From: Chitinivibrionales bacterium
GTDB lineage: Bacteria > Fibrobacterota > Chitinivibrionia > Chitinivibrionales > FEN-1185
NCBI GenBank assembly: GCA_035516255.1
Contig: DATJAL010000002.1
Location: 186,001-250,000 of the forward strand
Length of the DNA stretch: 64,000 nt
Direction of reading: 5' to 3'
In this document: piece after piece, positions 42,971-49,389 of the stretch
How positions within the stretch are numbered: the first letter of the stretch is position 1
How the letters are laid out: the number at the start of each line of letters is the position of its first letter
Notes under the pieces: model-generated
Databases searched by the model: none
Told to the model about the DNA's origin: nothing
Seen by the model: the letters and a program-made list of their open reading frames with translations, nothing else
Position numbers and translations under genes: made by a program

Positions 42971-43747
42971 TTATGCCACTTTTCGACGACGGGCTATTCC
43001 CAAGCCGCCCAGCGCGCACAACCCGGTAAGAAGCATGCAGAACAAAGCCGGCTCAGGCACGCGGAATGCTAGAAATTCCTGGGAAGGCCTTTGGGTGGGG
43101 CTGAAAACGGCCAATGAATACGTGTTGTCATCACGGTGACTGAAAGCGGCGTCAAGCAGGTTGCCGATGAAATTCTGGTCGCTGAGAGAGTTGACGCTCT
43201 GGAAATTTCCGTTGTTCAGGTTCATTGATGCGCGGGAACCGGTATAATCCCTCGAAATTTCCCAAAATGCAAGGCTCAGGTCGCTTCGGTCTGCGGCATT
43301 GAAAGAGGCATCGGTATTATAATAGTACTGGTCGGCGAGATAGCCGATCATGGCATATTTTTCGGCGGTAATGGTGTTGTTGATCGGGACGGCATTGGTT
43401 TGAGTATATGACGGCTGGGACAGAATGCCCTGCGTTCCGCCCGTCAAGTTCGTGGTGGTGAGCAGCTGGCTCGCCCATGAATCGCCGATTTTGATATCGC
43501 CGATGGGGTCAATGCAGAAGGTTTCCCATGATTGACCGGTGGTGACGTCCGTGGCATCATACAATCCGGTATAGACGGTTGCATTCACCAATTGAGGGCC
43601 GGACATTAGCTGTGACGGATCCATGTAGATGGAAAAATTTTTAGTCGTTCCGTCTGCAACGCCGGTCAATTGGATGACATCGGCCGCGACCCAGGTGGCG
43701 CCCAGCAACAAGGCAATAAATCCGAGGTTTGTTATTGATGATTTCAT
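42971..43747 (-). CDS. PEP-CTERM sorting-domain protein
   Basis: The 258-residue secreted protein has a signal peptide (residues 1-22, ending TWVAA) and ends with the PEP-CTERM signal: V-P-E-P at 230-233, a hydrophobic stretch LFCMLLTGLCALGGLGIA, and the basic tail RRRK. The mature part is beta-rich with CIDPIGDIKIG and SDLSLAFWEISRDY, features seen in PEP-CTERM surface proteins of unknown fold. ATG 43747 has TGGAGG seven bases upstream; the frame extends to 43789 without a ribosome site. A strong sigma-54-type element lies upstream. It is the only such substrate seen in the window. Confidence 0.93.
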   Translation of the reverse strand: MKSSITNLGFIALLLGATWVAADVIQLTGVADGTTKNFSIYMDPSQLMSGPQLVNATVYTGLYDATDVTTGQSWETFCIDPIGDIKIGDSWASQLLTTTNLTGGTQGILSQPSYTQTNAVPINNTITAEKYAMIGYLADQYYYNTDASFNAADRSDLSLAFWEISRDYTGSRASMNLNNGNFQSVNSLSDQNFIGNLLDAAFSHRDDNTYSLAVFSPTQRPSQEFLAFRVPEPALFCMLLTGLCALGGLGIARRRKVA

Positions 43748-43865
43748 ATAGGTACCCTCCACTGGCAGAGAAAATTTCGATGTAATCAAGCTTTCAATCT
43801 AAATGTCTTGTTGATCGCCATCAAGTTACATTTTAGTTACGTCCAAAAGAACCTTACAATACCCT

Positions 43866-44108: not shown

Positions 44109-45128
44109 CTACTGTTTTGATATTCTCCTCCTGCTGTCTTCCACATACCCAAGGCCGCCCCACATGGCAATTGCGTGGACGGGGCAGGTGTTGAGGCAGA
44201 GGCCGCATCCGATGCACTTGTCCTTGTTGACCACATGACGCTGGCCCTTGATTCCCGTGATGGCTGCGGTGGGGCACGATCCCACGCATTCGGCGCAGCC
44301 GTCGCATTTGACGTCGATGTTCACCTTGGGCCTGACCTTGACAAGATCCATAAAGCTGTCTGAAGGGCAGGTGTGCGCGGCCACGATGAAATTTTCGCCC
44401 GATGAATAATCGAGAACGGGCAGGCTGTTTTCCATGGTGATGGCGCCCGAAGGCGTTGCCCTGACGCACTGGGTGCATGCGGTGCAGCCAACGGCGCAGT
44501 ACTGCAGCACCCTGCCGCCGCGGTCGCGGTTGGCGCACGCGAGGAATATCTTGTGCACGCGGGGTATGAGCTCGATGAGGCCGCGGGGGCACGCCTTGAC
44601 GCACAGGCCGCACCCGGTGCACGCGTCAGGGTTGACAACCGCAATAAGGTCGGCGGTGACGGCGACGGCGTTGAACGGGCATGCGGCAGCGCAGCTTCCC
44701 AGGCCGAGACAGGCGTCTCGGCATGTTTTGGGCCCGTTTTGCGCGATGAGCGCCGCCCGGCAGTCGGCAATACCCTGGTAGACGAAGCGCTGCGAGGTTT
44801 CCTTTGCTCCTCCTTTACAATGGACAATGGCCATGAGCGGTTCCGGCATGGAGATGGAGACGCCAAGAATATCGCCGATTGCGTGCGAAACCGGGGAGCC
44901 GCCGGGCACGCAGCCGGTGGACGCCGCCGTATGGTTTGCAATTGCCTTTGCAAAGGCGCGGCACGTGGAAAAACCGCACGCCCCGCAGTCAACGTTGGGG
45001 AGTGCGTTGTGGATTTTTTCGGCGGTTTCGTCGTTTCGCAGAAGAAAGGTGCGGGATGCAAGCCCGTACAGCAGGCCGAAAAACAGGCCGAGCATTCCGA
45101 GAAACAACGCGGGCAGAACAACGGTCAC
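44109..45128 (-). CDS. rnfB: RnfB, ferredoxin-type subunit of the Rnf complex
   Basis: RnfB feeds electrons from reduced ferredoxin into the Rnf ion pump. The 339-residue protein has an N-terminal membrane helix (residues 5-25), the cluster site NVDCGACGFSTCRAF, and several ferredoxin-like motifs: CRDACLGLGSCAAACP, CTGCGLCVKACP, CTACTQCVRATP (fourth Cys replaced by Thr), CDGCAECVGSCP, CIGCGLCLNTCP. The extended multi-cluster form resembles RnfB of anaerobic bacteria. It is the last gene of the operon, three bases beyond rnfA. Confidence 0.93.
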   Translation of the reverse strand: MTVVLPALFLGMLGLFFGLLYGLASRTFLLRNDETAEKIHNALPNVDCGACGFSTCRAFAKAIANHTAASTGCVPGGSPVSHAIGDILGVSISMPEPLMAIVHCKGGAKETSQRFVYQGIADCRAALIAQNGPKTCRDACLGLGSCAAACPFNAVAVTADLIAVVNPDACTGCGLCVKACPRGLIELIPRVHKIFLACANRDRGGRVLQYCAVGCTACTQCVRATPSGAITMENSLPVLDYSSGENFIVAAHTCPSDSFMDLVKVRPKVNIDVKCDGCAECVGSCPTAAITGIKGQRHVVNKDKCIGCGLCLNTCPVHAIAMWGGLGYVEDSRRRISKQ

Positions 45129-45131
45129 GGC

Positions 45132-45752
45132 TTATCCTCCTGTGACGCGGGTGAAATGAAGGCCCCAAAAGCCGAGAAACGCAAGGGACATGAGTCCGGC
45201 GCTCAGCAGAGAAATGGGAAATCCCGAGAGTGCTTTTGGGATTCTCGCGTATTCCAGGCGCTGCTGTATGCCCGTCATGAGCACGAGCGCGAGCGTGAAA
45301 CCGCCACCGGTGGCCAGCCCATTGACAAATGCTTCAAGCAGCGTGAACGGCTGGCGGGTGAAAGGGTTGGTTTGCGCATTGATGAGCGCCAACGCGATCA
45401 CGGCGCAGTTTGCCGCGATGGAAGGGATGTAGACGCCCGCTTTTTCATGGAGCGCGGGCCACAGTTTGGAAATTCCTGTTTCCGCGAGGAGCGAAAGCGA
45501 GACAATCACGAGGATGAACACCATGGTCTGCATGTATTCCATGGAGGCGGGCACCAGCACGTATCTTCGGACAGCCCAGGTGAACACCGAGGTGAAACCC
45601 ATGACGAACGTCACCGCGATCCCCATGCCGAACCCGTCCGAAAGCTTTTTAGTCCTGCCGAAGCAGGGGCAAACGCCGATCAGGCGCGACAGCACGATGT
45701 TGTTGATCAGAATCGAGGCGATGCAAAGATCGAGCAGCGCGTGCAGGTTCAT
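45132..45752 (-). CDS. rnfA: RnfA, membrane subunit
   Basis: The 206-residue integral membrane subunit has six hydrophobic helices. ILINNIVLSRLIGVCPCFG near the N-terminus carries the conserved cysteine that, with RnfE, binds the membrane Fe-S cluster, and IAANCAVIALALIN carries the second. FVNGLATGGGFTLALVLM is conserved. The gene's ATG overlaps the rnfE stop (four bases), so it is co-translated with rnfE. Confidence 0.95.
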   Translation of the reverse strand: MNLHALLDLCIASILINNIVLSRLIGVCPCFGRTKKLSDGFGMGIAVTFVMGFTSVFTWAVRRYVLVPASMEYMQTMVFILVIVSLSLLAETGISKLWPALHEKAGVYIPSIAANCAVIALALINAQTNPFTRQPFTLLEAFVNGLATGGGFTLALVLMTGIQQRLEYARIPKALSGFPISLLSAGLMSLAFLGFWGLHFTRVTGG

Positions 45753-46348
45753 CGCGGCCTCTCTCTTTTTCTCAAACGGAGAAAATTATAAAGTCCGAGC
45801 ACCAGCGCAAGGGCGAAGAATCCGCCGCAGGGACTCGCAAAAACGAGCAGGGGATTTTCCGACGGCACCACCCGCTGTCCGAAAAGCCGGAAGCTTCCGA
45901 GGATCTCACGGACAACGGAACAAAAAAATAACGCGGCGATAAATCCGGCTCCCATGGCCGCGCCGTCGATCACCGACGGTACAAGCCTGTTTTTTGCCGC
46001 GAAAGAATCTGTCCGTTCGAGGATGAGGCAGTTAACGGCGATGAGCGGCACGTAAATGCCGAGTCTGCCCCTCAGACCGGGGGCATGCGCCTGCAGAAGC
46101 ATGTCGGCGATGGTTGCAAAGCACGCGATCATCATGAGGCGGCAGAGCGCGGCGACATTCCGGGGAATCAGGTTACGCGTGAAAGATACCGCGGCGGCAG
46201 AGGCGACAAGAACTCCCCAAACACAAAGTCCCATTCCAACCGCGTCGCCCACGGTGGCTGTGACGGCCAGCGCGGGGCAGAGGCCGAGGCCGAGCCTGAA
46301 CAGGGGATTCTGATCAACAATGCCGCGGTTCAATTCGCCTTTCATCAT
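45749..46348 (-). CDS. rnfE: RnfE, membrane subunit
   Basis: The 199-residue protein is the RnfA paralogue with six helices. GIVDQNPLFRLGLGLCPALAVT contains one cluster cysteine and LIAVNCLILERTDSFAAKN the other. DGAAMGAGFIAALFF matches the family. Its ATG overlaps the stop of the short rnfG-position gene by four bases, and its stop overlaps rnfA. Together A and E form the ion-translocating pair. Confidence 0.95.
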   Translation of the reverse strand: MMKGELNRGIVDQNPLFRLGLGLCPALAVTATVGDAVGMGLCVWGVLVASAAAVSFTRNLIPRNVAALCRLMMIACFATIADMLLQAHAPGLRGRLGIYVPLIAVNCLILERTDSFAAKNRLVPSVIDGAAMGAGFIAALFFCSVVREILGSFRLFGQRVVPSENPLLVFASPCGGFFALALVLGLYNFLRLRKRERPR

Positions 46349-46542
46349 CTGGCCTCCAACGCGGGAGTTCGGGCTGAATCGGGCGCCGGCGGATGAGCCG
46401 GCATATTTTGATGGGCCGGTTCAGCCGTTGCGCCGGCCCTTGCGACGCCGGGATTTGCCGCATGGATCATGGCCACGAGAAGACCGCATAAAAACGCGGT
46501 GAGGGTTATGGCAAACACGGATTTGACAAACGCGCTACCCAT
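46345..46542 (-). CDS. Short RnfG-position protein lacking the FMN domain
   Basis: Only 65 residues are encoded where rnfG stands in the order C-D-G-E-A-B. The N-terminus (FVKSVFAITLTAFLCGLLVAMIHAA) matches the membrane helix that starts RnfG, but the roughly 120-residue periplasmic FMN-binding domain with its SGAT flavinylation motif is absent. A Pro/Ala-rich tail follows. There is no room for the domain between rnfD and rnfE, and its ends overlap both neighbours by a few bases, so a frameshift is unlikely. It may be a minimal G subunit or a decayed one. Confidence 0.65.
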   Translation of the reverse strand: MGSAFVKSVFAITLTAFLCGLLVAMIHAANPGVARAGATAEPAHQNMPAHPPAPDSARTPALEAR

Positions 46543-47575
46543 GTTTTCTCACCTCACCGAAATACCGCCGTCTGGTATATCGGTCAAGAATCGGGACCGC
46601 AAGGTTCATGAGGAGCACGGCCCAGCAGACACCGTCGGGATATCCGCCGAATTTTCTGATGACAAAGGTAAGGCCGCCGCAGCCGATGCCGAACAGGATG
46701 CGGCCCAAGCCGCTCATGGGCGAGGTGACCGGGTCGGCCGCGAAAAAAAACGCGCCGAGCATCGTGCCGCCGCAGAGCACCTGGTAGAGGGCGGCAATCA
46801 GTGAGTCCGCCGAAAACAAATCGCCGACGCCGCTGAAAATCCAGAACAGCACGAACAGTGTGCCCAGGAAAAATAACGGCGTCCTGAACCTTATAATGCC
46901 CCGGTAAAAAAGAAAAATCGCGCCCGCACCGACGGCGGCCGCGCTTGTGGCGCCCAAACTCCCGCCCACGTTTCCCCAGAAAAGGCTGGGAATCGCATCC
47001 TGAAGGTCAAGGGACGTGAAAACGCCGGAGGCCATGGCCGATTTGAAATACGCCAGCGGCGTGGCGGCGCTGATCCCGTCGAGTCCCCGCTGGAGGCCGC
47101 ACAATGTGCCGTGGGCCGGAACCGTCCACGACGACATGGCGGCGGGGAACGACACCATGAGGAACGCGCGTGCCGCGAGCGCGGGATTGACAAAGTTGTG
47201 TCCGAGCCCGCCGAACGCCATCTTGACAACTGCTATTGCGAACACGGCGCCGCAGGCGGCAATCCACAGGGGCAGGCGGGGAGGGAGCGAGAGGCCGAGC
47301 AGCAGGCCGGTGAGCACCGCGCTCAGGTCGCCGGTGGTGAGCGGCCTGCGGAAGAAGGCGCACAGCAGCGCCTCGGAGCCGACGGATGCCACAACGCACA
47401 GGGCGACGAGCAGCAGCGCGTAAACGCCGTAAAACACCGCCGACGCGGCGAGCGCCGGCGCAAGCGCGATAATGACCGCCAGCATGATGGAAGGCACCGA
47501 CTCGCCCTGCCGGATATGGGGCGGCGCCGAGACATACAAGAGCGGTTGCAGGCGGGCGGAAGCGGTATCGTTCAT
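46535..47575 (-). CDS. rnfD: RnfD, flavin-binding membrane subunit
   Basis: The 346-residue protein has about nine helices and begins with LLYVSAPPHIRQGES, typical of RnfD. The covalent FMN site is the Thr in GLDGISAATPLAYFK. GLGHNFVNPALAARAFLMVSFP and DPVTSPMSGLGRILFGIGCG are hallmarks. The frame extends to 47725 inside rnfC, but ATG 47575 overlaps the rnfC stop by ATGA and is the true start. It passes electrons through FMN and riboflavin across the membrane. Confidence 0.95.
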   Translation of the reverse strand: MNDTASARLQPLLYVSAPPHIRQGESVPSIMLAVIIALAPALAASAVFYGVYALLLVALCVVASVGSEALLCAFFRRPLTTGDLSAVLTGLLLGLSLPPRLPLWIAACGAVFAIAVVKMAFGGLGHNFVNPALAARAFLMVSFPAAMSSWTVPAHGTLCGLQRGLDGISAATPLAYFKSAMASGVFTSLDLQDAIPSLFWGNVGGSLGATSAAAVGAGAIFLFYRGIIRFRTPLFFLGTLFVLFWIFSGVGDLFSADSLIAALYQVLCGGTMLGAFFFAADPVTSPMSGLGRILFGIGCGGLTFVIRKFGGYPDGVCWAVLLMNLAVPILDRYTRRRYFGEVRKHG

Positions 47576-48927
47576 GATGCCGTTCCGCCCGGTGTTGCGG
47601 CGGCAGACGGCAGGCTGGCGCTGCTGGCCATGTATTTTCCAAGTTTCATGAAATGCACAAGGTTTATTTTTGCGGGGCAAACGTACGCGCACGACCCGCA
47701 TTCTACGCACGCCATGACACCCCATTCAATCGGTTCAGCCGTTTTTCCCTTGTCAATGAATTTCATGAGAAAAGATGGGTTCAATTTCATGGGACATGCC
47801 TGCATGCACCTTCCGCAGCCGATGCAGTCGTACTTCCGAATGCCGGGGAAAAGCGCCGAAAGTGCGACCACGCCCCGCGTGGTTTTGATGATCGGCGCAT
47901 CGAGCTCGGCCTGCGCGAGGCCGCGCATGGGCCCGCCCATGATTATTTTTTTCACCGCTTTCATGTCGGCGCCGCAATGTTCAAGCACATGCCTGACGGG
48001 GGTGCCGACGCGCACCAGCAAGTTTTTCGGCGACGCCACGCACGGGCCGGCAACCGTGATGACGCGCTGGTAAAGCGGAACGCCGGTCGCGACGGCCTGC
48101 GCAATGGCGTAGACCGTGGCGGCGTTGTGCACCACGCAGCCCACGTCCGCAGGGCTGCCTCTGTAAGGCGTTTCCCTTTTGGTAAGCGTCTTGACCAGTA
48201 TTTTCTCTTCGCTTTGCGGATATTTTGTTTTCGTGGACACCAACAAGAAATCGCTCAATTGCGGGTCCTTTACGGCTTGCGACACGGCTTTCAGGACGCC
48301 GGGCGTCTCGGCGGAAACCGCAATCACCGCTTTTTTAGCGCCCAGGATTTTTTTTACCATCAGCGCGCCGGTCAGCACGTCGCCGCACTTTTCGACCACC
48401 AGCCGGGCGTCCGCGGTCATGAGGGGTTCGCATTCGGTGCAGTTCAGTATGAAGGTGTCAATTTGTTTGCCGGACGAGGCAAGCTTGACGTGCGCGGGAA
48501 CGCCGTCTCCGCCCATTCCGACAATGCCGCATTCGCGGACCTTTTGAATGATTTCCTCAGGCGCGGCGTCGCGCCACGGCTTCTGCAGCGGCTTTGCGTC
48601 GGCCGCCCTGTCCTGGCCGTCGTTTTCGATTTCAGCCGCGAGCACGCGCTCGCCGTTTGGATGAGGAAACTTGGAAACGGAAAGCACGCTCCCTGAAACC
48701 GGCGAATGCACTGCGGCGGAATCAAGGCCGGCGGGCTCGGCAATGACCTGCCCCCGTAAAACCCTGTCGCCGCGTTTTACCACCGGGGTGGCGAGGATAC
48801 CCGCATGCTGCAGCATCGGCACAATTATTCTTGAGGGCGGAGGAAGTTCTTCGATGGCCAAATGCGCCGTGGTGAGCTTGCCGTTTGGCGGATGGATCCC
48901 CCCGCGAAAGCCTAATATCCGCAGCAC
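47572..48927 (-). CDS. rnfC: RnfC, NADH-binding peripheral subunit
   Basis: RnfC holds the FMN/NAD site that reduces NAD+. The 451-residue protein begins FRGGIHPPNGKLTT, has the barrel-sandwich segment AAVHSPVSGSVLSV, the Rossmann part with GGDGVPAHVKL, ILNCTECEPLMTAD, and GAKKAVIAVSAETP. The C-terminal ferredoxin domain carries CIGCGRCMQACP and CVECGSCAYVCP. It is shorter at the C-terminus than enterobacterial RnfC. It follows the STAS gene after 12 bases and is coupled to rnfD. Confidence 0.95.
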   Translation of the reverse strand: MLRILGFRGGIHPPNGKLTTAHLAIEELPPPSRIIVPMLQHAGILATPVVKRGDRVLRGQVIAEPAGLDSAAVHSPVSGSVLSVSKFPHPNGERVLAAEIENDGQDRAADAKPLQKPWRDAAPEEIIQKVRECGIVGMGGDGVPAHVKLASSGKQIDTFILNCTECEPLMTADARLVVEKCGDVLTGALMVKKILGAKKAVIAVSAETPGVLKAVSQAVKDPQLSDFLLVSTKTKYPQSEEKILVKTLTKRETPYRGSPADVGCVVHNAATVYAIAQAVATGVPLYQRVITVAGPCVASPKNLLVRVGTPVRHVLEHCGADMKAVKKIIMGGPMRGLAQAELDAPIIKTTRGVVALSALFPGIRKYDCIGCGRCMQACPMKLNPSFLMKFIDKGKTAEPIEWGVMACVECGSCAYVCPAKINLVHFMKLGKYMASSASLPSAAATPGGTAS

Positions 48928-48939
48928 GTCGTGGGTCCT

Positions 48940-49296
48940 TTACTTGGCAATGGCGTTTTTCCCCTGCTCCCAGAATTTTTCTTCGGACGGGAAGAGCGGC
49001 ACCACCTTGCCGATTTCAAGTACGTAAAACACGTCCCATACATTTCCTTCGGGGCAGACGATGGCGATGCTGCCGTCCTGTTTCTTGGCAAGGTAAGAAA
49101 GTTTGAGGATGGTTGAAAGTGAATAGCTCGCGATCGTCTTGAGCGCTTCGAGGTTGAGCAGAAAATGCTTTTCTCCTCTGCCGAGCTCTTCGTTGAAGAC
49201 CTCGCTGAGCTTGCGGGCGCCTTCCCAGTTGAGGTTGCCTGCAAGGTTAAAAACGACAAAGCCGTTTTTCTTTTGGGTATTGAGCAGAAACTGCAT
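48940..49296 (-). CDS. STAS-domain protein (anti-sigma factor antagonist-like)
   Basis: The 118-residue protein is a single STAS domain: NGFVVFNLAGNLNWEGARKL, HFLLNLEALKTIASYSLSTI with Ser residues near the usual phosphoacceptor site, then GSIAIVCPEGNVWDVF. ATG 49296 has GGGAG before it; the open frame extends to 49347. It lies only 12 bases before rnfC, so it is probably the first gene of the Rnf operon. It may be part of a partner-switching control system, but no partner kinase is nearby. Confidence 0.82.
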   Translation of the reverse strand: MQFLLNTQKKNGFVVFNLAGNLNWEGARKLSEVFNEELGRGEKHFLLNLEALKTIASYSLSTILKLSYLAKKQDGSIAIVCPEGNVWDVFYVLEIGKVVPLFPSEEKFWEQGKNAIAK

Positions 49297-49389
49297 CGGT
49301 TCTCCCGGCCGGTGTTTTTCTCTGTGTATAAAATTATATTTGGACAAGCATTAGCAAAGCCAAATCTTGTTCATCCCAACGGGGATATC

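Follow-up and report, generated by a model that had tools for sequence, protein, structure and literature searches.

The rnf gene cluster of the uncultured Chitinivibrionales bacterium studied here (GenBank assembly GCA_035516255.1, contig DATJAL010000002.1), located in a stretch of 64,000 nucleotides hereafter called the window, encodes an RnfG subunit reduced to a membrane helix followed by a Pro/Ala-rich tail. We lean slightly towards the view that the cluster specifies a lineage-specific, remodelled Rnf complex, in which the known electron route from the AE cluster through FMN(G) to FMN(D) would be unusable, and which has probably ceased to work as a ferredoxin:NAD+ pump. The Rnf pump is central to anaerobic energy metabolism, and the FMN of RnfG is thought to be an obligatory shuttle. 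As judged from the sequences compared here, the loss of RnfG is part of a wider remodelling common to related clusters, rather than a bypass of a single subunit.

On the minus strand of the window the genes are arranged in the order STAS, rnfC, rnfD, a short ORF, rnfE, rnfA and rnfB:

48940..49347, (-), STAS-domain protein (anti-anti-sigma-like), 12 bp upstream of rnfC; Pfam STAS 4.8e-11
47572..48927, (-), rnfC; TIGR01945 451 bits (cut-off 246), 11/11 conserved Cys kept
46535..47575, (-), rnfD; TIGR01946 325 bits (cut-off 207), FMN threonine (SAATPL) kept
46345..46542, (-), rnfG stub, 65 aa; TM1-like helix and Pro/Ala-rich tail, FMN domain absent
45749..46348, (-), rnfE; TIGR01948 164 bits (below cut-off 213), both [2Fe-2S] Cys kept
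45132..45752, (-), rnfA; TIGR01943 185 bits (below cut-off 229), both [2Fe-2S] Cys kept
44109..45128, (-), rnfB polyferredoxin; TIGR01944 143 bits (cut-off 69), 28/29 conserved Cys kept

The short ORF consists of 65 codons (MGSAFVKSVFAITLTAFLCGLLVAMIHAANPGVARAGATAEPAHQNMPAHPPAPDSARTPALEAR). It starts with an ATG inside the 3' end of rnfD, preceded by GAGGTGAG, and stops with a TGA that overlaps the start codon (ATG) of rnfE, preceded in turn by GGAGG; both are good ribosome-binding sequences. The ORF occupies the position of rnfG in the relatives and in Chitinispirillum alkaliphilum, a member of the same phylum, the operon of which, rnfCDGEAB (PMC4814513), has the same gene order as the window. 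Searches of Pfam, NCBIfam and PDB with the 65-aa product gave zero matches, and a full-length RnfG HMM had none in any frame of the window, in which no remnant of the FMN domain was found. When compared with a profile of the first transmembrane helix of RnfG (TM1) built from 39 relatives, the transmembrane block of the stub outscored 996 of the 998 shuffles, all of which preserved the hydrophobic block, and the corresponding stub of the sister species (G001) outscored 993 of 1000. An earlier note on this DNA had claimed that the FMN domain was lost and that only the membrane helix and the Pro/Ala-rich tail were left, and this claim is borne out by the 65-aa ORF, the absence of family matches and the negative RnfG HMM.

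The relatives were drawn from 168 Fibrobacterota genomes, 46 of which carry rnfD, and are draft genomes. The genome of the window (G000) has one rnfD. It is itself a draft of 61 contigs, which might suggest that an assembly collapse or a binning error deleted the FMN domain; this explanation is extremely improbable, however, as G001, the sole other genome of the genus (98% complete), was assembled separately and has the same layout with a different sequence. Its gene order is the same, its stub of ~60 aa is 28% identical to that of the window and has the same overlaps with its neighbours, and the start/stop overlaps are neat in both species. The collapse that the earlier note had named as a possible refutation is thus ruled out by the layout in G001. 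Nor was a full rnfG, the other such possibility, detected in the genome by a genome-wide profile search with TIGR01947. Used as a query against the relatives, the stub returned weak, chance-level matches only, the stub of G001 being too diverged for such detection.

The comparison with related Rnf operons, which the earlier note had proposed, places the stub in a broader context. In the relatives, the gap between rnfD and rnfE is ~480-860 nt long and holds an ORF of ~195-270 aa with a flavinylation motif, and nearly all the other clusters of the order encode such a full RnfG (~195-270 aa with the motif T/S-G-A/S-T/S), the exceptions being those of G002 (79% complete), G005 (83% complete) and G030 as well as the second cluster of G037. 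In G002, AGAP is found instead of the RnfG motif, and the RnfD threonine is replaced by Pro. The cluster of G005 (L080, contig C62) contains an RnfG-like ORF without the flavin threonine motif (927-1490), and that of G030 (L085, contig C12, 3655-8332) lacks RnfG; most of its AE cysteines are gone, as are the RnfD threonine and the RnfC loop, and neither ApbE nor an FMN_bind protein was detected in this genome. The second Rnf-type cluster of G037 (L064, contig C136, 2225-5616), a genome that additionally carries a six-gene rnf cluster (L071), consists of rnfC, rnfD and an rnfB without the membrane helix, and no A, E or G gene was found within the 10 kb read. Of the six altered clusters, all but that of G002, where a contig end cuts RnfB, encode an RnfB with 28-29 of the 29 conserved Cys. 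In a tree of C, D and B, the six altered clusters (the window, G001, G002, G005, G030 and G037-II) group together with an SH-aLRT of 99, some of the branches being long; when the longest branches were left out, the window, G001 and G037-II still grouped (SH-aLRT 87). The tree thus places the stub in a clade of altered Rnf clusters.

The five remaining subunits, which the earlier note had regarded as intact, are so only in part. The genes are all present, and the FMN threonine, the AE cysteines and nearly all the Fe-S cysteines of RnfB and RnfC are retained; what does not hold is the state of RnfA and RnfE, in which 28-34% of the invariant residues are altered, and of the RnfC loops. Invariant residues were defined from ~30 canonical clusters plus A. 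woodii, and the effects of residues were read across from A. woodii. By this definition, the altered fractions in the window and G001 are 32% and 28% for RnfE, 28% and 34% for RnfA, 14% and 19% for RnfC, 15% and 8% for RnfD, and 9% and 7% for RnfB, while the maxima of leave-one-out controls are 11%, 7%, 5%, 27% (a fragment; otherwise 9%) and 13%, respectively. In the window, 15 of 47 otherwise invariant residues are changed in RnfE and 15 of 53 in RnfA. In RnfE, R67 is replaced by Ala in the window only, and E115 by Asp; in RnfA, LITTNC has become SIAANC, and Q85, L108 and T111 are altered. Four altered clusters, those of the window, G001, G002 and G005, were tested against the NCBIfam models; both proteins score below the cut-offs in all of them, and above in two control relatives. 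In RnfC, the FMN and NADH loops are changed from GGASFPTHVKL to GGDGVPAHVKL and from YPQGGE to YPQSEE, with the substitutions A142D, F144V and G239S at positions invariant in the relatives; part of the motif persists, and so do E167/E169 and much of the NADH fold. RnfD, the only Pfam domain of which is PF03116, retains Thr156, Asn123 and Asp249 (A. woodii numbers), i.e. the FMN threonine and the riboflavin Asn/Asp. Between the window and G001, pN/pS is 0.32-0.45 for the rnf genes and 0.67 for the stub, at a dS of ~1.4-1.8 that is near saturation. These ratios indicate that the rnf genes evolve under purifying selection. Apart from the stub, all ORFs of the cluster, that of the STAS protein included, are intact and under such selection, and B, C and D are the most conserved part of the complex.

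Published structures and mutants bear directly on what such a complex could do. In the canonical complex, RnfG bridges a gap of ~35 A between the AE cluster and FMN(D) (PMC12174285), and is held to rotate between A/E and D (PMC9588780); in A. woodii, the substitution T185A at the flavin threonine of RnfG abolished activity and growth, and RnfE R67A left ~10% activity and no autotrophic growth (PMC11889175). Since FMN(G) is absent and the AE cluster would lie ~35 A from FMN(D), the U-shaped path from ferredoxin through B, AE, G, D and C to NAD+ and the ion coupling that goes with it cannot operate in their known form. A normal Rnf pump whose FMN(D) receives electrons by direct transfer out of the AE cluster would agree with the conservation of the AE cluster, FMN(D) and the riboflavin ligands in the window, but it is very unlikely in view of the distance (PMC12174285), the dead RnfG FMN mutants (PMC11889175), and the alteration of RnfE R67, of RnfA Q85, L108 and T111, and of the RnfC loops. 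Hence, the bypass of the FMN of G envisaged in the earlier note stands insofar as the known FMN(G) route is inoperable, while its picture of an otherwise normal Rnf with a single-cofactor bypass is at odds with the changes in RnfA/E, the RnfC loops and RnfE R67.

Among the functional alternatives, the leading one, which is most plausible in G005, is a split RnfG: a separate FMN_bind protein with one helix would receive its FMN from ApbE and dock at the site between A/E and D, with the stub holding the anchor position. The search for such proteins, also proposed in the earlier note, yielded one of each in G000: the single significant FMN_bind protein, which has 133 aa, one helix and the motif DAVSGAS (C16:66558-66956), and one ApbE, ~1.7 kb past the end of the window. 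Furthermore, in G005, where the RnfG threonine motif is absent, a one-helix FMN_bind gene (L080, 3764-4159), 41% identical in its product to that of G000, lies ~40 bp downstream of rnfB. However, the G000 gene is not linked to rnf, being located on a different contig next to queC/queE; G001, with the same stub in a 98% complete draft, was found to encode no FMN_bind protein, which weakens the stand-alone protein as a conserved replacement; many of the relatives that have a full RnfG encode short FMN_bind proteins as well; and the docking partner RnfA/E is strongly diverged. We therefore regard a split RnfG as rather unlikely for the window. As for the surroundings of ApbE, an ABC transporter pair, ApbE, an EetB-like protein (PF07456) and an EetA-like NusG_II protein lie in a row at ~249.9-254.4 kb of contig C2 (L082, 4914-9395), mostly past the window end, possibly as a flavin-based electron export cluster. 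The possibility that the EetB-like protein is a partner found in the stub genomes alone was rejected, since 33 of the 42 genomes of the order that were searched encode it, which makes its presence uninformative.

Another explanation is vestigial decay, in which Rnf function has been lost in an oxygen-respiring lineage and the genes are heading for loss with their ORFs not yet broken. It would account for the stepwise losses across the clade, namely of the RnfG motif, RnfG, the AE cysteines, the RnfC loop and the RnfD threonine, and for the cluster of G030, which is without nearly all membrane cofactor ligands. It also agrees with the respiratory genes of the hosts: among 42 genomes, a haem-copper oxidase was found in five, namely G000, G001, G002, G030 and G011, and the first four also possess complex I-type 49-kDa genes. 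The oxidase is present in 4 of the 5 genomes with altered clusters only and in 1 of the order's 34 remaining genomes with RnfD (Fisher p = 0.0003, uncorrected for kinship); this link is phylogenetically clustered and is no proof of cause. Simple decay is nevertheless a fairly improbable explanation, because the overlapping reading frames are intact in two species at a dS of ~1.5, purifying selection is indicated by pN/pS of 0.32-0.45, the Fe-S ligands are conserved, with 28-29 of the 29 RnfB Cys in five of six altered clusters, and the RnfD flavin site and ApbE are retained together. Indeed, ApbE tracks the RnfD threonine, both being present in G000, G001, G005 and G037, and neither in G030 and G002.

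In the remodelled complex that we slightly favour, the transmembrane helix of the stub would take the place of RnfG in the B/G/A/E helix bundle and keep the complex together. The B-C-D core would be the part still used, and it is all that remains in the C-D-B cluster of G037. Electrons could then pass between a ferredoxin-like donor at RnfB, the Fe-S clusters of RnfC and the flavins of RnfD without a periplasmic shuttle. In several of the hosts, to judge by their haem-copper oxidases, the change may have accompanied a move to oxygen respiration, which, we propose, freed Rnf from its main energy-conserving role. A more specific version of this reading is a rewired, Rnf-derived complex in respiring Fibrobacterota, in which electrons are transferred among the RnfB polyferredoxin, RnfC and the RnfD flavins, the periplasmic FMN shuttle is absent and the RnfA/E arm is dispensable, as its loss from the C-D-B cluster of G037 would suggest; we put this forward tentatively, as possible although on the less likely side. 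Several points speak against the remodelled complex as we picture it. With E167/E169 in place and much of the RnfC fold for NADH retained, NAD chemistry may survive; the retention of FMN(D) in RnfD points to a continuing need for some flavin transfer at the periplasmic face; and the stand-alone FMN_bind gene beside rnf in G005 favours a replaced over an abandoned shuttle. Moreover, a direct path from B to C needs a rearrangement too, as at least 25 A separate the carriers of RnfB from those of RnfC in a published structure (PMC9588780).

The complex in the window shares with the canonical RnfABCDGE/RnfCDGEAB systems of A. woodii, C. tetanomorphum, A. vinelandii and Chitinispirillum five homologous subunits, the flavin sites of RnfD, the AE cysteines and the Fe-S ligands of RnfB and RnfC. 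Unlike them, it has an RnfG that is a helix only, RnfA and RnfE below the family cut-offs, altered flavin and NAD loops in RnfC, and no periplasmic FMN shuttle. The Nqr/Rnf-like two-subunit complexes are similar in their reduced set of Nqr/Rnf subunits, thought to employ one transmembrane electron arm; however, they keep an NqrC/RnfG-like FMN subunit, and their RnfD-like protein lacks the threonine and is fused to an NAD domain (PF00175) (PMC8238504, PMC11334425), whereas the window has lost the FMN subunit, and its RnfD retains the threonine and is not fused to PF00175. Na+-NQR shares the homologous D/E/A core, but has the flavin subunit NqrC, and NqrF and NqrA instead of RnfB and RnfC. No report of an Rnf complex missing RnfG was found in the literature. 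Clusters without RnfG in which the other subunits appear to be under selection, along with related losses of A/E ligands or subunits, would amount to a natural dissection of Rnf; they could show which parts of it can work alone, and thus provide a test of current coupling models.

A promoter scan gave a result at chance level, and terminator-like sites are more numerous than in shuffled sequences, but are dispersed across coding sequence. As for the flanks of the cluster, a STAS gene upstream of rnfC is also present in G001 and, weakly, in G002; it was not found in the other clusters examined or in other families of the order, and rnfC-adjacent homologues occur only at L042 and L078. At the other end, 42971-43789, adjoining the rnf cluster, encodes a secreted protein with a PEP-CTERM-like sorting signal (a weak Pfam match, below the cut-off).
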